Positions 3,363-15,036 of a DNA stretch of 15,130 bases are shown one piece after another. A model generated the notes under the pieces. That model was given only the letters and a program-made list of their open reading frames with translations, had not been told where the DNA came from and ran no database searches. How positions within the stretch are numbered: position 1 is the first letter of the stretch; each line of letters starts with the position of its first letter. The position numbers and the translations under genes are program-made. Where the stretch lies: assembly GCA_025355915.1 (NCBI GenBank), contig JANXYT010000384.1, positions 1 through 15,130 of the forward strand. The letters run 5' to 3'. The stretch is from Holophagaceae bacterium. GTDB lineage: Bacteria; Acidobacteriota; Holophagae; Holophagales; Holophagaceae.

Positions 3363-5315
3363 ATGAGTGGCTTGATGCATGATCCCGTGAACGCCGCCCG
3401 CTATCGAGCCCTCATCCTGGCCAGCCTAGCGCGCCAAGGCGCGCCATCTCTGGATCGCAACTCCAGAATCCTGGTGGTGGACACGGCCCGCCAGCGGCTG
3501 GGCTTGCTGGAGGTTGGCCGCCTGATCTTCGAGGCGACCGTCTCTACCGCCAAGAACGGCCCGGGCTGCGGGGAGGGCTCGTACCGCACTCCCACTGGGT
3601 GGCATTGCATCCAGGCCCGCATCGGCGCAGGGGCCGAGGCCGGCACCGTCTTCCGCAGCCGCGTGGCCACAGGTGAGGTGTGGCGCGGCGAACCCCGCGA
3701 CGAGGACCTGATCCTCACCCGCGTGCTCACCCTGGATGGCCTGGAGGAGGGCTGGAACCGTGGGCCCGGGTGCGATTCCCTGGAGCGCTTCATCTATCTG
3801 CACGGCACCAACAAGGAGGCGCAGCTGGGCCAGCCTGTCTCCCACGGCTGTGTGCGCCTCGCCAACTCGGACGTGGTCGACCTCTTCGAGCAGCTGGCAG
3901 AAGGCGATCTTGTGCTCATCGCCGAGGAGCCTCCGGGCGATGCGTTCGGCCTGGGGCGCCTTCACTTCGCCGGCGTGGCCGGAAGCGGCATGAGCGCCCT
4001 CGCCCAGTTCGTGGCCATGAAGGGCGGCAGGGCGAGCGGCAGCGACCGCAGTTTTGACCGGGGCCAGCGGCCCGAGGCACGGGCGCAGCTCGAAGCCCTG
4101 GGCGTGGCCATCTATCCCCAGGACGGGTCTGGCCTCGAAGGTGACTGCGCGGCCCTGGTGGTGTCCACGGCGGTGGAAGAAGACGTGCCGGACGTGGCGG
4201 CGGCCCGGCGTCTGGGTGTGCCCGTGCTGCACCGCTCTGAGCTGTTGGCGTACCTCGTGGCGCGCTACCGCACGGTGGCGGTGACGGGCACCAGCGGCAA
4301 GTCCACCACAGTGGCCATGGTGTTCGAGATCCTGCGGGGCGCTGGGCGCGATCCATCGGTCATCACCGGAGGCGAACTGGTGGCGCTGCAGCGCGAGGGC
4401 CGCTGGGGCAACGCCTGGGCGGGCGCCTCGGACCTGCTGGTCATCGAGGCCGACGAAAGCGATGGTTCCGTGGTGCGCTACCACGCCGCCGTGGGGGTGC
4501 TCCTGAATCTGCAGCGCGATCACAAGGAGATGGACGCGGTGGCGGAGATGTTCCGCAGCTTCCGGGCCCAGGTACGCGAAGCCACCGTGGTAGGCGAGGC
4601 TTCGAACCTGCGGGAATTCGCTGAGGGAGCCACCACCTTCGGGTTCGGTGCTGGCGCCGACCTTCGTGAGGAGGACCTGCGGCTTGGCCCCGAAGGTTCC
4701 TCCTTCACCGTGAGGGGTGTGCCTTTCCGTTTGCCGGTTCCGGGCCGCCACAACGTGGAAAACGCTCTGGCGGCCATCGCCGCCTGCGAGGCCCTGGGTG
4801 TGTCACCAGCGGCCATGGCGGATTCCCTGGCTGCCTTTCAGGGGGTGGCCCGGCGTTTCCAGGTGCAGGGTACGCGGAGCGGCATCACCGTGGTGGACGA
4901 TTTCGGCCACAATCCCGCCAAGGTGGCGGCGTCCATCCGGGCGGCTCACCTGCGCGTGGAGGCCGCCGGAGGCCGTGTGCTGGCGGTCTTCCAGCCCCAC
5001 GGCTTCGGGCCCCTGAAGTTCCTCCGGGCGGATTTCGTGGAGACCTTCGCCGAGGAATTGAGCGCCCGGGACCGGCTGTGGTTCCTGGATGTTTTCTACG
5101 CGGGAGGCACCGCCGCCAAGGACATCAGCTCTTTCGAAGTGGTGGCGGATATCGCCGCCCGGGGCGTGGCCGCGGAGCATGCGCCCTCCCGGGATTGGCT
5201 CCTGGCCCGGCTCGTGGCCGAGGCCAAGGACGGCGACCTGATCCTCGTGATGGGTGCCCGGGATCCCTCGCTGACGGAGCTGGCCAAGGCCATCCTGGAG
5301 GGGCTGCCTGCCTGA
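3363..5315 (+). CDS. YkuD L,D-transpeptidase-fold domain fused to MurC/Mpl-type Mur ligase
   Basis: A 650-residue two-domain protein. Residues about 30-185 are a YkuD domain: ILVVDTARQRL opens it, then His147 (HGTN) and the SHGCVRL motif with catalytic Cys163. Residues about 200-650 are a complete Mur ligase of Mpl length (about 450 residues). It has VAGSGMSALA at the UDP-binding end, P-loop GTSGKST (309-315, Lys313), EADESDGS (from 362), NLQRDH, PGRHNVENA and DDFGHNP (from 512). No signal peptide or membrane helix is seen, so the YkuD domain should be cytoplasmic, which suggests an L,D-carboxypeptidase supplying tripeptide to an Mpl activity. DDFGHNP and QPHGFGPLKF deviate from classical MurC (DDYGHHP, QPHRY) and from Mpl, so the ligase substrate is not certain. 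Possible starts are GTG 3336, ATG 3363 and ATG 3375; none has a good ribosome binding site. GTG 3336 lies in a repeat, so ATG 3363 was taken. Confidence 0.88.
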   Translation: MSGLMHDPVNAARYRALILASLARQGAPSLDRNSRILVVDTARQRLGLLEVGRLIFEATVSTAKNGPGCGEGSYRTPTGWHCIQARIGAGAEAGTVFRSRVATGEVWRGEPRDEDLILTRVLTLDGLEEGWNRGPGCDSLERFIYLHGTNKEAQLGQPVSHGCVRLANSDVVDLFEQLAEGDLVLIAEEPPGDAFGLGRLHFAGVAGSGMSALAQFVAMKGGRASGSDRSFDRGQRPEARAQLEALGVAIYPQDGSGLEGDCAALVVSTAVEEDVPDVAAARRLGVPVLHRSELLAYLVARYRTVAVTGTSGKSTTVAMVFEILRGAGRDPSVITGGELVALQREGRWGNAWAGASDLLVIEADESDGSVVRYHAAVGVLLNLQRDHKEMDAVAEMFRSFRAQVREATVVGEASNLREFAEGATTFGFGAGADLREEDLRLGPEGSSFTVRGVPFRLPVPGRHNVENALAAIAACEALGVSPAAMADSLAAFQGVARRFQVQGTRSGITVVDDFGHNPAKVAASIRAAHLRVEAAGGRVLAVFQPHGFGPLKFLRADFVETFAEELSARDRLWFLDVFYAGGTAAKDISSFEVVADIAARGVAAEHAPSRDWLLARLVAEAKDGDLILVMGARDPSLTELAKAILEGLPA

Positions 5316-7950: not shown

Positions 7951-9696
7951 ATGAGCCAGGAATCCGTTTCAGGAACGGCTGCGTCCGGAGGTGCATCCGC
8001 CTGGCAAGGCGCGAGGCCCGGACCCGCCCTCGCCACCCTGCTGCTTGGTCTGTTGTTGTACTTCGGATTGCCGAGACTGGTCCAGGTGCCCGATGCCAAG
8101 GTCTTCATGGGGCAGCCGGTCGCGGCGAAGCCCGCGCCCGCCACCAAACCGGCCCCGAAGCCGGAGGCCAAACCGGCCGCTCCGCCGGTCGCAGCTGCCC
8201 CTGCAAAACCCCTGACCGAGGCCGCCGCCGAGGCCAAGGTGAAGGCGGAGGCAGAGGCGAAGCTCAAGGCCGAGGCCGAAATCAAAGCCAAGACTGAGAC
8301 CGAAGGCAAGCTCAAGGCTGAGGCTGATGCCAAGGCCAAGGTGGAGGCCGAGGCCAGGCGGAAGGCCGACTGGGTGAAGGGGCTGCATCTCTTCGCCATC
8401 TTCGTCGCCACCATCGTGGGAATCATCGTCAAGGCGCTGCCCATGGGGGCCGTGGCGATGATTGGCATCGCGATCACAGCCCTCAGCGGAACGCTCTCCA
8501 TCGCCGATTCCATGAGCGGTTTCTCGGACGTGGTGATCTGGTTCATCGTGCTGGCCTTCTTCATCTCCCGGGGCTTCATCAAGACGGGCCTCGGCGCCCG
8601 CATCGCGTACACCTTCATGGCGCTGCTCGGCAAGCGCACCCTGGGGCTGAGCTATGGCTTGGCGGCCACGGATCTGGTGCTGGCGCCCGCCATCCCCAGC
8701 AACACGGCCCGCGGCGGCGGCATCGTCATGCCCATCATGGCCTCGCTCGCCCGCGCCTACGGCAGCCATCCCGGCGATGCCAGCGCCCGGAGGATGGGTT
8801 CGTTCCTGACCCTCACCGCGTACCAGGTGAACTGCATCACCAGCGCCATGTTCCTCACGGCCATGGCCGCCAACCCTCTCGCCCAGAAGCTGGCGGGGGA
8901 TCTCAAGGTGAACATCACCTGGGGTGGTTGGGCGCTCGCGGCCCTGGTGCCGGGGGTGGTGGCGCTGCTTGTGGTGCCCCTGGTGATCTACTGGCTCCAC
9001 CGGCCTGAGATCACGGAGACCCCCGAGGCTGTGGAGATCGCCAAGGGCCACCTGCGCAACCTCGGCCCCATCAAGCGCCAGGAATGGATGATGTTCGGCG
9101 TCTTCATCATGTTGCTGGTGCTCTGGATCTTCGCCAAGCAGCTGGGTGAGCTCAATCCGACCACCTCGGCGCTGGCGGGTCTTTCCGTGCTGCTGCTCTC
9201 AGGCGTCCTCAACTGGGAGGATATCAAGAAGGAAACCGGCGCCTGGGACACCCTGGTGTGGTTCGCGGCCCTGGTGATGATGGCCAGCTTCCTCAACAAG
9301 CTCGGCATGGTGCCCTGGTTCAGCAAGTCCATGGGCGGCATGGTGTCGGGCTATGGCTGGATCGCGGCCTTCCTGGTGCTGGCGCTGGTCTACTTCTACA
9401 GCCACTACTTCTTCGCCAGCAACACGGCCCATGTCGCCTCGATGTACGCCGCCTTCCTCGGCGTATCCATTGCGGCCGGGGCGCCACCGGTCCTGGCGGC
9501 CTTGGTGCTCGCCTTCTTCAGCAACCTCTTCGCGGGCATGACCCATTACGGAACGGGTCCCGCGCCGGTGCTCTTCGGCACGGGCTACGTGGAGATCGGC
9601 ACATGGTGGCGCACGGGGTTGCTGGTCAGTTTCGTGAACATCGTCATCTGGGTGGGCCTCGGCGGCCTGTGGTGGAAGGTGCTGGGGCTCTGGTAG
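7951..9696 (+). CDS. DASS-family (SLC13-like) dicarboxylate transporter with long TM1-TM2 insert
   Basis: A 581-residue divalent anion:Na+ symporter or exchanger, about 100 residues longer than usual bacterial members. TM1 is about residues 25-44. Residues 51-140 are an insert: Pro/Ala/Lys-rich (57-88), then a charged AEAK-type helix (89-140). The normal core restarts with GLHLFAIFVATIVG (144 on). Both SNT signatures are present, APAIPSNTARGGG and HYFFASNTAHVAS, as is the GTGPAPVLFGTGY motif near the end. The core most resembles plant plastid DiT1 2-oxoglutarate/malate translocators and bacterial SodiT/TtdT/CitT relatives. Likely substrates are malate, tartrate, succinate or 2-oxoglutarate; the divergent D-malate/tartrate dehydrogenase supports C4 acids. 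By topology of the family the TM1-TM2 loop, and so the insert, would be periplasmic. GGAGG lies 6 bases before the ATG, and a strong hairpin terminator follows. Confidence 0.92.
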   Translation: MSQESVSGTAASGGASAWQGARPGPALATLLLGLLLYFGLPRLVQVPDAKVFMGQPVAAKPAPATKPAPKPEAKPAAPPVAAAPAKPLTEAAAEAKVKAEAEAKLKAEAEIKAKTETEGKLKAEADAKAKVEAEARRKADWVKGLHLFAIFVATIVGIIVKALPMGAVAMIGIAITALSGTLSIADSMSGFSDVVIWFIVLAFFISRGFIKTGLGARIAYTFMALLGKRTLGLSYGLAATDLVLAPAIPSNTARGGGIVMPIMASLARAYGSHPGDASARRMGSFLTLTAYQVNCITSAMFLTAMAANPLAQKLAGDLKVNITWGGWALAALVPGVVALLVVPLVIYWLHRPEITETPEAVEIAKGHLRNLGPIKRQEWMMFGVFIMLLVLWIFAKQLGELNPTTSALAGLSVLLLSGVLNWEDIKKETGAWDTLVWFAALVMMASFLNKLGMVPWFSKSMGGMVSGYGWIAAFLVLALVYFYSHYFFASNTAHVASMYAAFLGVSIAAGAPPVLAALVLAFFSNLFAGMTHYGTGPAPVLFGTGYVEIGTWWRTGLLVSFVNIVIWVGLGGLWWKVLGLW

Positions 9697-11315: not shown

Positions 11316-12683
11316 GTGAGCCCCCTACCATTCCATCTCGTGACCCTGACCCACCCCGAGTGGGAGGATGCGCTGGCCTGCGGGAAACGCCTGGGTGACG
11401 ATGCCCTGCCTGAACTCCGGCTCGATCTGTTTCCAGGGATGGATCCCGAAGCCCTGGTGGACGCCCTGAAGCGCCGCTGCCTGGTGACTTGTCGGCGGGT
11501 CTCGGAGGGCGGGCGATGGCCCGATGAGGAGGAGGCGGGGCGCATCGCCCAGCTGGTGCGTGCGCTCAAGGGCAAACCTGCCTGGGTGGATCTCGAGTGG
11601 GACCTGCCCATCCCGCCGGAGATCCAGGCGGCTCGGACCCATGTCCGGTTGCTGCGATCCGTTCATGTGGCTCCAGGGACCTTCGATCTGACCGAGCGGC
11701 TGCGGGCCCTGCCTGAAGGCGAAGCCTTCAAGTGGGTGGACTGGGCCGGGCGCCTGAGCGACAATGCCCGCCTTGTGGATCCGCTGGCCTGGGCCCGGGA
11801 CCGCGGCATCCGCCTGTCGGCCTTTCTTATGGGACCCAAGGGCCTGACCAGTCGAGTGATGCAGTCCGCCTGGGGCGGAGCCTTTACCTACGCGGCGCCG
11901 GATGATGGCCCGCCTGCCGCCCCGGGCCAGGTGCCCCTGGCGGCCCTGCGGGCCTGGCGCAGCGCGAAGCTCCATCCGGGCCACGGGCTCTGCGGGGTCA
12001 TCGGGGATCCCGTGCTGCATTCGCGGGGGCCAGCCTTCCATAACGCGCGGTTCCAGCAGGCCTTCAAGGATCTGATCTACGTGCCCCTGGTCTGTGGCGA
12101 GGCCGGCGAGGCGAGGGAGGCCCTGGATGCCCTCCGCATTCTTGGACTGAGCATCACGGCGCCGTTGAAGCTGTCACTGCCCGAGACGCTCGGCTTGAAG
12201 GGCCCGCTGAATACCCTCTGGCGGCGGTCGCCGGCGGATCCGTGGCAGGGCGCGAACACCGACGCCGAGGCCTTTGAACAGTCGCTGTCGCAGCTGGAAT
12301 CTGGGCCCGTGCTACTGCTGGGGGAGGGCGGCGTGGCGCGTACCAGTCTCACGGCACTGGCTGCCTCTGGGCGGGCGGTGCTTCAGGTTTCCCGCCGATC
12401 ACCGGCGAGTGCAGAAACCGTGGCTGCCTTCGCGCCGGTGGGGGTCGTCCAGGCCACCAGTGCGGGGATGGCCGCCGAGGACCCAGCCCCGTTCCCTCAG
12501 TTGTTGGAGGCCGCCCGCCCCAGTGCCCGCTGGGCCGTGGAGTGGATCTACAAGGAGGACACCGCCTTCGCCCTCTGGGCCCGGGAGACGGGCCTTCATC
12601 TGGTGGAGGGCGCAACCCTCTTCGAGGCCCAGGCCGAGGCGCAAAGCCGGAAGTTCATCGAGGGCTGTGGCGGGGATAACTGA
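11316..12683 (+). CDS. Bifunctional 3-dehydroquinate dehydratase (type I) / shikimate dehydrogenase
   Basis: A 455-residue AroD-AroE fusion catalysing steps 3 and 4 of the shikimate pathway in the cytoplasm. Residues 1-215 are type I dehydroquinase: Glu33 (LPELRLD), His117 (SVH), Schiff-base Lys139 (FKWVDWA), Arg180 (GLTSR) and Gln205 (APGQ). Residues 225-455 are shikimate dehydrogenase: GVIGDPVLHS, catalytic Lys285 (SITAPLK), Asn300 replaced in frame by the NTL triad at 299-301, NTD (314-316), nucleotide loop GEGGVA (336-341), ATSAGM and the C-terminal EGATLFEAQAE. The usual HSxSP shikimate-binding pair reads HSRGP, so the second Ser is Gly238. The same domain order occurs in plant DHD-SDH and some bacteria. 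The start is GTG at 11316, because the dehydroquinase fold begins at once and no in-frame ATG lies upstream; its ribosome binding site is weak (GGA at 11305-11307). Confidence 0.9.
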   Translation: MSPLPFHLVTLTHPEWEDALACGKRLGDDALPELRLDLFPGMDPEALVDALKRRCLVTCRRVSEGGRWPDEEEAGRIAQLVRALKGKPAWVDLEWDLPIPPEIQAARTHVRLLRSVHVAPGTFDLTERLRALPEGEAFKWVDWAGRLSDNARLVDPLAWARDRGIRLSAFLMGPKGLTSRVMQSAWGGAFTYAAPDDGPPAAPGQVPLAALRAWRSAKLHPGHGLCGVIGDPVLHSRGPAFHNARFQQAFKDLIYVPLVCGEAGEAREALDALRILGLSITAPLKLSLPETLGLKGPLNTLWRRSPADPWQGANTDAEAFEQSLSQLESGPVLLLGEGGVARTSLTALAASGRAVLQVSRRSPASAETVAAFAPVGVVQATSAGMAAEDPAPFPQLLEAARPSARWAVEWIYKEDTAFALWARETGLHLVEGATLFEAQAEAQSRKFIEGCGGDN

Positions 12684-12811: not shown

Positions 12812-14068
12812 ATGGACCTCCTGCTGGTCGAGGACAAGGACAGTTTCCGGCGTCTGCTGACCCAGGCTCTGGAAGGGTCCGTCTGGACGGTGCGGGCCGT
12901 GGCGGATCCGCAGGAGGCACTGCGGCACCTGGAATCCCAGCCCTTCCATGTCCTCGTCACCGATCTGCGGCTGCCTGGCATGAGCGGCATCGAGCTGATC
13001 CGCCGAGCGCGACGGTTGCATCCGGGCCTGCGGGTGGTCCTCATGTCGGCTTTCGGGGAACCCAAGGACATCGTGGAGGCCATGCGGCTTGGCGCGGACG
13101 ACTTCCTGCCCAAACCCTTCGACCTCGATGCCTTCCTCGCCCTGCTCGACCGGCTTCGCGCCCTGGTGGGCGCCCCTCCGCCGGATCCCGCCGAACCCTG
13201 GGTCGCGCACAGTCCGGCCATGCAGGCGCTGGACGCTGCCCTCCGTCAGGCGGCCAGTGCCGATCTCCCCGTCGTGTTCCGGGGGGAGCGAGGATCCGGG
13301 CGGGAACGCTGCGCCCGGCGCCTTCACGTCCTGCGCCATCCGGCGGCACCCTACCTGAGCCTATCCGCCGCGACCCTGGGGCCGGACGGGCCCGATCCCC
13401 GGATGCTCCAATTGCTGGCGGGCGGCAGCCTCTTCCTTGCCGGGCTGGAGCACCTCTCCACGGCCGCCGCCGGGCCCCTTGCCCGGGCCATGGATGGCGA
13501 ATCCGGACGCCGCCTCGCCTGGATGGGCGGCGTGGATTCCGAGGGGGTCCTGGCCCCGGACATCGCGCAGCGGCTGGGTTCTCTGGAACTGCGTGTGCCT
13601 TCGCTGAGGGAACGCCGGGAGGATCTTCTGGCCCTGGCCCGCCTGTTGCTGGAGCAGTCCGCGAGGCGGGAAGGGCGCCCTGTTGTCTGGCTGGAGCGCA
13701 GTGCAGAGCGGCAGCTGCTGGACCATCCCTGGCCGGGCAATGTGCGGGAGCTGGAGGTATTGGTGGGCCGGACGCTCCTTTTTTCTGAAGGGCACGCCAT
13801 TCGCTCCTTTCCGGATCTGGGCTTGGGTCTCGCCGCGCCCCTCTGCCTGTCTTGGCCTGAACACGGCGACCTGGATGGAATGCTGAAGGCTGTGGCGCGG
13901 TCCGCCGAGGCCCAGCTGCTGCGCCGGGCCATGAGCGAGACCGCCGGTGACCTGCCCCGGGCTGCGGAAATCCTGGCCCTCACGGTTCGGACCCTGGCTC
14001 AGCGCTTGCGGGATCACGGCATCCCTCTGGAAGATAGAGGAAGCACTCTCCTGCGGAAGACACCATGA
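12812..14068 (+). CDS. NtrC-like response regulator with degenerate AAA+ domain
   Basis: 418 residues in three parts. Residues 1-118 are an intact receiver: acidic Glu7-Asp8, phospho-acceptor Asp51 (VTDLRLPGMSG), Ser79 and Lys101 (LPKPFD). Residues about 130-325 follow the NtrC AAA+ layout but are degraded. Walker A reads GERGSGRE, with Arg164 where Lys is expected. The GAFTGA loop and about 30 residues around it are absent, and Walker B LFLDE reads LFLAG (207-211). The RVPSLRERREDLLALA and HPWPGNVREL motifs remain. Residues 366-404 are a Fis-type helix-turn-helix (LPRAAEILALTVRTLAQRL). It should bind DNA on phosphorylation but is unlikely to hydrolyse ATP or remodel sigma-54 polymerase; repression or sigma-70 regulation, as for HupR or TyrR-like proteins, is inferred. 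It overlaps the MoxR gene by ATGA. No Shine-Dalgarno precedes the ATG, but the receiver fold demands this start. Confidence 0.9.
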   Translation: MDLLLVEDKDSFRRLLTQALEGSVWTVRAVADPQEALRHLESQPFHVLVTDLRLPGMSGIELIRRARRLHPGLRVVLMSAFGEPKDIVEAMRLGADDFLPKPFDLDAFLALLDRLRALVGAPPPDPAEPWVAHSPAMQALDAALRQAASADLPVVFRGERGSGRERCARRLHVLRHPAAPYLSLSAATLGPDGPDPRMLQLLAGGSLFLAGLEHLSTAAAGPLARAMDGESGRRLAWMGGVDSEGVLAPDIAQRLGSLELRVPSLRERREDLLALARLLLEQSARREGRPVVWLERSAERQLLDHPWPGNVRELEVLVGRTLLFSEGHAIRSFPDLGLGLAAPLCLSWPEHGDLDGMLKAVARSAEAQLLRRAMSETAGDLPRAAEILALTVRTLAQRLRDHGIPLEDRGSTLLRKTP

Positions 14069-15036
14069 CCCAAGCCCCACCCGTCCTCATTCCCCCGGTC
14101 CGCAGCGCGGAGGGGATCCGTCCCGCGGCGCAGTCCGGGTTGGCGGCGCTCCAGTCCGTGGTGGTGGGCAAGGAGGCCCAAGTGCGGCGGGCCTTCGCAG
14201 CCATGCTGGCGGGCGGCCACGTACTACTGGAGGATCTGCCGGGGGTGGGCAAAACCACCCTGGCCAAGGGGCTGTCCCGCATCCTGGGCGGTTCCTTCCA
14301 GCGCGTGCAGGGCACCAACGATCTGCTGCCCTCCGACCTGCTGGGCGTTCACCTCTGGGATGCCAAGGAACAGAATTTCCACTTCCAGCCCGGCCCCGTG
14401 TTTTGCCACGTGCTGCTGCTGGACGAGCTGAACCGCATCGGCCCCAAGACCCAGAGCGCCCTGCTCGAGGCGATGGTGGAGGGGCAGGTCACACTGGATC
14501 GGAGCACCCATAAGCTTCCCGACCCCTTCTTCGTCATCGCGACCCAGAATCCGCTGGATCACGCCGGGACCTTCCCGCTGCCCGAAAGCCAGCTGGACCG
14601 GTTCTCCTGCACGATCCACCTGGGCTACCCCGATCGTGCCGCCGAGCGGCTGATCCTCACGGGGGAGGCGGGGTCCGAGCGCCTGAGTACGCTCTCACCC
14701 GTGCTGGATCTGGATGGCTGGCGGCAGGCCCGCACTGCGGTGCGGAGCGTAAAGGTCGCCGAGGCGGTGCTGGCTTACGTCGAGCGGATGGTGGAGCGCA
14801 TCCGGGCCGGGGGTGGCTTTTGTTCCACCCGCGCCGCCAAGCATTGGCTGGGTCTGGCTCAGGCCGAGGCCTGGCTCGAGGGCCGGGACTTCATCACCCC
14901 GGATGATCTGCAGCGCACCCTCACCGACACCATGGCCCACCGCGGAAGCATGGATGACCGTCGCCTCAATCGGGGGGACCGGCGCGAACAACTGGCCCGG
15001 CTGTTGAAGGAACTTCCAGTCGGGTGGGCCGGATGA
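14065..15036 (+). CDS. MoxR-family AAA+ ATPase
   Basis: 323 residues, typical MoxR length. The order is VVVGKEAQVRRAFAAMLAGGHVLLED, Walker A GVGKTT (Lys63), GTNDLLPSDLLG, and Walker B LLLDELNRI (Asp120-Glu121). Then come sensor-1 ATQNP (Asn162) and LPESQLDRF with the arginine-finger region at Arg179. A C-terminal lid with a helical tail completes it. MoxR ATPases act as chaperone-like assembly or activation factors in the cytoplasm, usually beside DUF58 and von Willebrand-factor A genes. The ATG overlaps the regulator stop as ATGA, and the following frame starts with another ATGA overlap. This suggests one co-translated operon whose later genes lie outside the window. Confidence 0.95.
   Translation: MTQAPPVLIPPVRSAEGIRPAAQSGLAALQSVVVGKEAQVRRAFAAMLAGGHVLLEDLPGVGKTTLAKGLSRILGGSFQRVQGTNDLLPSDLLGVHLWDAKEQNFHFQPGPVFCHVLLLDELNRIGPKTQSALLEAMVEGQVTLDRSTHKLPDPFFVIATQNPLDHAGTFPLPESQLDRFSCTIHLGYPDRAAERLILTGEAGSERLSTLSPVLDLDGWRQARTAVRSVKVAEAVLAYVERMVERIRAGGGFCSTRAAKHWLGLAQAEAWLEGRDFITPDDLQRTLTDTMAHRGSMDDRRLNRGDRREQLARLLKELPVGWAG

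Follow-up and report, generated by a model that had tools for sequence, protein, structure and literature searches.

A YkuD–Mur ligase fusion from Holophagaceae as a candidate murein-peptide recycling enzyme, and the ligase clade to which it belongs

Results

Fusion gene and domain architecture

The window analysed here is a stretch of 15,130 nucleotides from the genome of a Holophagaceae bacterium (assembly GCA_025355915.1, contig JANXYT010000384.1; 2.78 Mb in 506 contigs, 77.58% complete), and our subject is a single gene on its forward strand, at 3363..5315, in which a YkuD domain is followed by a complete Mur ligase within one stop-free open frame of 650 amino acids. Translation may begin at an alternative start, the ATG at 3375, which would fit the 646-residue protein of the protein database's own prediction (P0002). 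All four Pfam domains of the product lie above their cut-offs (70.9 bits against 23.4 for YkuD). The YkuD domain (PF03734, residues 35-186, 3465..3920) carries His147 (3801..3803), invariant in 15 fused proteins and a seven-row ElsL alignment, and an SHGC motif with the nucleophile Cys163 (3840..3851), in which Ser160, Gly162 and Cys163 are invariant in the same 15 proteins and the histidine is variable. The ligase spans residues 200-633 and has all three Mur domains: the N-terminal domain (PF01225, residues 200-303, 3960..4271), the middle domain (PF08245, residues 307-475, 4281..4787), with the P-loop GTSGKST (4287..4307) whose Lys313 is invariant in a 43-row ligase alignment, and the C-terminal domain (PF02875, residues 497-633, 4851..5261).

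The predicted structure of the full-length protein is confident (predicted local distance difference test 92.0, predicted template modelling score 0.90). A simple Kyte-Doolittle scan in 19-residue windows revealed no leader peptide; the best mean, 1.61, belongs to the stretch from residue 468, and stretches starting within the first 60 residues reach 0.85 at most. A preliminary description of this locus had read from the sequence a YkuD domain with a catalytic HG...SHGCVRL signature, a Mur ligase with an intact P-loop in the same chain, and no export signal. The single frame and its recurrence in homologues, the four domains, the positions of His147, Cys163 and Lys313 and, within the reach of so simple a scan, the hydropathy profile bear this description out.

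Distribution and origin of the fusion

The fusion is genuine, and is neither a chance juxtaposition nor a chimera. In a search of 5.8 billion proteins, the same four Pfam domains were found in each of the 120 best matches of 6558 (one of them the window's own protein), and the same frame is present in 43 of the 51 Holophagaceae genomes searched, so that an assembly artefact is rejected. In one further Holophagaceae genome (G042), a piece of the ligase lies at the end of a contig, and seven others (G001, G002, G038, G039, G040, G049 and G050) have neither a fused gene nor a ligase. Among 62 loci taken from named genomes, 48 have YkuD and ligase motifs in one frame; 43 of these are acidobacterial, with Holophagaceae or Geothrix as the usual recorded name, and five belong to Methyloceanibacter or one closely related Hyphomicrobiaceae genome. 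The nearest named relatives are Geothrix and other Holophagaceae (Acidobacteriota). Fusions of 640-657 residues, with an ElsL match and the ligase in one frame, also occur in six of 345 genomes from the phylum of G057. We call this group deltaproteobacterial; the label Myxococcota given to one of its loci (L055) in our tree stems from the catch-all NCBI name 'Deltaproteobacteria bacterium'. The architecture singled out by the preliminary description thus recurs among Holophagaceae, Hyphomicrobiaceae of the Methyloceanibacter type and a deltaproteobacterial group. Source databases, where they name the fusions, call them L,D-transpeptidase family protein, hypothetical protein or UDP-N-acetylmuramate--alanine ligase, and a plasmid search with the whole fusion returned partial matches only, all below 60% identity.

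We built a tree with 61 ligase-family sequences, picked by hand to cover the groups. Its 21 fused ligases cluster together with two deltaproteobacterial members that are unfused (L173 and L174), with support 100/99 for the joint group. This topology makes it likely that the fusion arose once and was subsequently transferred or lost.

The YkuD half resembles ElsL

The best named model for the YkuD half is that of ElsL (NF040925), at 136.4 bits, under its cut-off of 270; ElsL of Acinetobacter baumannii (L187, 167 residues) scores 328.2 bits on the same model, and the window's domain is 40% identical to it over 92% of the query. Like A. baumannii ElsL (LdtK), the domain is leaderless, retains the SHGC motif and catalytic His/Cys of a YkuD fold, and finds in NF040925 its best named model; unlike ElsL, which is a separate protein, it is fused to a ligase and misses that model's cut-off. 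The excerpted text of PMC8649774 describes ElsL as a leaderless cytoplasmic YkuD L,D-carboxypeptidase that cuts tetrapeptide and not pentapeptide, reports that tetrapeptide gets reused by Mpl when ElsL is missing, finds its orthologs chiefly among Gamma- and Betaproteobacteria and across every order of Verrucomicrobia, and within those excerpts makes no mention of an ElsL-ligase fusion. We predict that the YkuD half works like ElsL, though outside strict membership of NF040925. This assignment draws on sequence, the fold search having covered the ligase part (residues 192-650) and barely probed the YkuD part. In 29 of the 43 Holophagaceae genomes that carry the fusion, it is the sole YkuD protein at E <= 0.001.

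Some variation is seen within the YkuD motifs of more distant fusions. The histidine of SHGC is replaced by Cys or Gln in four of the five Methyloceanibacter-type proteins (L044-L047), and the arginine following GC[IL] is replaced in all five aligned deltaproteobacterial ones (L176-L178, L180 and L181); the catalytic Cys and His147 are retained in the aligned rows of both groups.

The ligase half stands apart from MurC and Mpl

On its profile scores, motifs and position in the tree, we take the ligase to be a third clade of Mur ligases, neither MurC nor Mpl. It scores 299.6 bits against the MurC profile TIGR01082 (cut-off 335.1) and 128.7 bits against the Mpl profile TIGR01081 (cut-off 388.7), missing both and lying far closer to MurC; a relative, L054, does pass the MurC cut-off at 348.3 bits. 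In the tree, a MurC group (98/88) and a MurC plus Mpl group (100/99) both exclude the family, the branch to the MurD outgroup being too long to root it.

Three C-terminal motifs set the family apart. A hallmark DDFGHNP (4896..4916) replaces the HHP of the aligned MurC and Mpl rows, GARD (5253..5264) stands in place of GAG in MurC and SNGG in Mpl, and QPHGFGP (4992..5012) occupies the position at which MurC has QPHR[YF][TS]R, with both MurC arginines lost. According to passages of PMC3060825, these two arginines bind the incoming amino acid in MurC; both are present in 16 of 16 MurC rows, and not one of the 61 family rows has either. Their loss supports the suspicion of the preliminary description, drawn from the unusual motifs, that the ligase may differ in specificity, and GARD is a candidate for what takes their place. 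Its 'full-length MurC/Mpl ligase' holds as to completeness, and fails as to membership in either family.

Comparison with each relative makes the same point. With MurC, the nearest fold and profile among those listed, the window's ligase shares the P-loop, and it departs from MurC in lacking the arginines, in having HN for HHP, in its separate clade and in a host that has its own MurC. With Mpl it shares the three Mur domains and, on our proposal, the reaction and the place in the pathway, but it lacks EPRSN[TS]M, MSNGGF and DEYD. Neither EPRSN nor DEYD occurs in any of the 61 family rows, and they are found in three of three Mpl rows, a test that scored the DEYD and EPRSN[TS]M positions and not the whole (S/T)AFFDKRSK string given as an Mpl motif in the excerpts of PMC3060825. 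We therefore reject a canonical Mpl on the profile score, the separate clade and the missing motifs.

Standalone members of the family are often named UDP-N-acetylmuramate--alanine ligase in source databases. Two fast-changing members, L157 and L158, have YQAHTPFS and YQSHKPMS in place of QPHG and still adjoin an S66 gene.

Cell-wall recycling genes in Holophagaceae

Every one of the 51 Holophagaceae genomes, the host of the window (G000) included, has a canonical MurC that scores above its cut-off. Mpl is above cut-off in none of the 51, in a search that one of 14 control genomes passes. S66 proteins, the LdcA type, are present in 14 of the 51, each of which also has the fusion, and were not found in the host, whose assembly is incomplete. 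All four of the S66 proteins read among these 14 have a leader that we take to be twin-arginine-like, which suggests that these four are probably exported and are not the cytoplasmic recycling carboxypeptidase. The preliminary description had envisaged a genome that keeps MurC and lacks both a separate Mpl and LdcA: the outcome is mostly in its favour, in that the first two parts are borne out across the 51 genomes, and with S66 in 14 of them the argument from presence or absence of LdcA alone is weak. S66 proteins with such leaders (L076-L079 and L095) could form an exported subgroup in Holophagaceae and Sphingosinicella.

Standalone ligases and S66 carboxypeptidases in Alphaproteobacteria

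If the ligase belongs to recycling, its standalone relatives should accompany some L,D-carboxypeptidase, and this was the premise of a co-occurrence test. Among 289 Alphaproteobacteria genomes, counting as family those rows at or above 391.9 bits (the lowest of them, from G117, is incomplete and borders a contig end; the next one listed scores 349.2), the ligase is present in 33, S66 in 65 and both in 32. In 26 of these 33 genomes ligase and S66 lie side by side, with 12-381 bp between matched domains, 18 pairs on opposite strands and eight on the same strand; in six more ligase genomes (G265, G183, G066, G139, G149 and G101), S66 lies on another contig. A hydrophobic leader is absent from all 25 neighbouring S66 proteins read of these 26, and present on a second, unlinked S66 of the Sphingosinicella genome. 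We also checked, among the named loci, nine ligases not fused to YkuD (L054-L057 and L059-L063): L059, L060, L061 and L063 adjoin S66, L062 is fused to it, the genome of L056 has S66 elsewhere, and the genomes of L054, L055 and L057 have no S66, that of L055 carrying a standalone ElsL.

By Pfam, L062 joins ligase and S66 in one protein of 766 residues, the S66 part of which scores best on the muramoyltetrapeptide carboxypeptidase model (163.4 bits, cut-off 378). Three protein clusters share the ligase::S66 architecture, and along 99% of its length the first has 45% identity with each of the other two, so the architecture is no assembly error. On the same NCBIfam model, the three S66 partners that were scored, two neighbours and the fused one, reach 59-163 bits against the cut-off of 378. 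LdcA itself belongs to a protein family different from YkuD and is no part of the window's protein, yet in Alphaproteobacteria S66 proteins accompany this ligase family, as neighbours or as fusion partners. One ligase family is thus tied to two unrelated L,D-carboxypeptidase folds, YkuD before the ligase and S66 after it, and this link is the strongest functional argument that we have.

The deltaproteobacterial sample

Of the 345 genomes from the phylum of G057, 21 matched the ligase and 20 were counted as family, at 483.2 bits or more; a borderline genome, G459 (365.7 bits), and a second row of G656 (369.6 bits) were left out. ElsL-model matches at E <= 1e-15 occur in eight of the 345, namely the six fusions, a standalone ElsL in G057, which also has the ligase, and one in G519. 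By eye, without a profile search, we saw no carboxypeptidase beside the standalone ligases in the flanks of 14 loci.

Discussion

Overall, we believe, with a probability of roughly 0.8, that the fusion is a cytoplasmic bifunctional enzyme of murein-peptide recycling, one that converts tetrapeptide to tripeptide and then loads the product onto UDP-MurNAc. The YkuD half would trim the tetrapeptide in the cytoplasm, and the ligase half, with ATP, would join the resulting tripeptide to UDP-MurNAc, yielding UDP-MurNAc-tripeptide for MurF; the third-clade ligase would thereby have taken over the role of Mpl. Joining the two halves would prevent the ligation of uncut tetrapeptide, which is harmful where carboxypeptidase is lacking, and the fusion itself possibly channels the tripeptide from one half to the other. 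The proposal builds on the architecture, the conservation, the separate clade, the motif loss and the genomic link to two carboxypeptidase folds. From these we infer both activities, the substrate, the order of the steps and the benefit of being fused. That the fusion joins successive trimming and ligation steps had been suggested in the preliminary description, and the idea is supported by the failure of Mpl to reach its cut-off in Holophagaceae, by the likeness to ElsL and, strongly, by the S66 link in Alphaproteobacteria. More generally, the ligase probably represents an undescribed third clade of UDP-MurNAc:murein-peptide ligases, often labelled MurC and present in bacteria such as Holophagaceae that have no recognisable Mpl, that is coupled to two carboxypeptidase folds by neighbourhood and by separate fusions, and that would form with them a self-contained trim-and-ligate module.

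At the same time, a number of observations weigh against the recycling enzyme. Neither half of the fusion attains its NCBIfam cut-off, and profile scans of the window's proteins identify no recycling genes around it. Within the fused clade fall the unfused L173 and L174, whose genomes have no ElsL match. In the deltaproteobacterial sample, G519 has ElsL without the ligase, 13 of the 20 ligase genomes have no ElsL match, and S66 is absent from G056 and G057, the two of the 20 that were searched for it. In Alphaproteobacteria, G301 has the ligase without S66; the ligase of G059 (L057), one of the named loci, is accompanied by neither S66 nor ElsL. The associations themselves (S66 in 32 of 33 alphaproteobacterial genomes with the ligase versus 33 of 256 without it, Fisher 2.9e-23; ElsL and ligase in the deltaproteobacterial sample, Fisher 5.5e-9) rest on counts with shared ancestry, so that the Fisher values overstate independence; 33 alphaproteobacterial genomes have S66 with no ligase, and six of the seven deltaproteobacterial co-occurrences are the fused gene itself.

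The alternative that survives best, though we consider it unlikely, is that the ligase takes some other murein peptide (a dipeptide, a tetrapeptide or a modified stem), or that YkuD edits UDP-MurNAc-tetrapeptide after ligation. The C-terminal motifs of the ligase match neither Mpl nor MurC, and passages of PMC3060825 have Mpl accepting tetra- and pentapeptides less efficiently, so that an editing partner would help. The editing version overlaps the trim-then-ligate proposal and differs from it only in the order of steps; ElsL precedes Mpl in the model given in the excerpts of PMC8649774, and our present data fit either order.

A second MurC, adding L-Ala or another single amino acid, with the YkuD half salvaging D-Ala or serving some unrelated purpose, seems to us improbable. 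Such an enzyme would accord with the profile to which the ligase lies closest, but a canonical MurC is already present in every one of the 51 Holophagaceae genomes, and both amino-acid arginines of MurC are absent throughout the 61 family rows. Moreover, it is hard to see why a plain MurC should adjoin or fuse with two unrelated L,D-carboxypeptidases: inspection by eye of the 25 S66-bearing genomes with a listed canonical MurC row put none of these rows within 1 kb of an S66. An ordinary wall-acting L,D-transpeptidase with the ligase fusion as a side effect can be set aside as highly improbable, for although the Pfam family is named after L,D-transpeptidases and several source records say L,D-transpeptidase family protein, the hydropathy scan shows no leader, which rejects an exported enzyme, an ATP-dependent Mur ligase stands in the same chain, and the domain's best named model and 40% identity both point to ElsL.

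Both reactions, and the recycling pathway in which we place them, are already known; it is the fusion, the ligase clade and the pairing with two carboxypeptidase folds that appear new, and in the titles, abstracts and excerpts of open-licence PMC literature covered here we found no description of any of the three. According to the portions of PMC13046382 and PMC9790009 consulted, Caulobacter crescentus is reported to lack both LdcA and Mpl homologs, Agrobacterium tumefaciens to lack orthologs of Mpl and of L,D-carboxypeptidases, and such bacteria are suggested to degrade the peptide instead; extracts of PMC11980594 report Mpl homologs from other Caulobacteraceae, so that Alphaproteobacteria are not wholly devoid of Mpl. 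If the clade described here is an Mpl-type ligase, direct peptide reuse would be wider than searches with E. coli Mpl show, extending to Holophagaceae, to Sphingosinicella and other Alphaproteobacteria, and to some deltaproteobacteria, and database names such as UDP-N-acetylmuramate--alanine ligase would hide such peptide ligases. In this context, a naturally occurring trim-and-ligate fusion that retains both catalytic centres would offer a direct test bed for channelling and for protection from harmful tetrapeptide precursors.

Neighbouring genes and additional observations

Searched with the window's genes, the retrieved stretches of 45 Holophagaceae-type loci contain an acnA-like gene in 35 cases and MazG in 23. 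In the window itself, an aconitase-like protein cut by the window's start (1-1914, + strand) has its Aconitase_C (swivel) match at residues 80-126, preceding the catalytic match at residues 220-502; the usual domain order of AcnA is the reverse. A DASS-family symporter (7951-9696, +) bears an N-terminal extension of about 140 residues, with a high content of Ala, Lys and Glu and a weak resemblance to TolA. Type I dehydroquinase and shikimate dehydrogenase N-terminal matches share one frame at 11316-12683 (+), an AroD-AroE-like fusion whose scores stay far under those that NCBIfam requires of the known bifunctional enzyme. At 12812-15036 (+), a response regulator with a weak, partial match to a sigma-54 activation domain overlaps by four bases the gene behind it, which encodes an AAA ATPase, presumably of the MoxR-like type. 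Outside the window, a Magnetococcus massalia plasmid (L183) carries a gene annotated mpl directly behind ampD.
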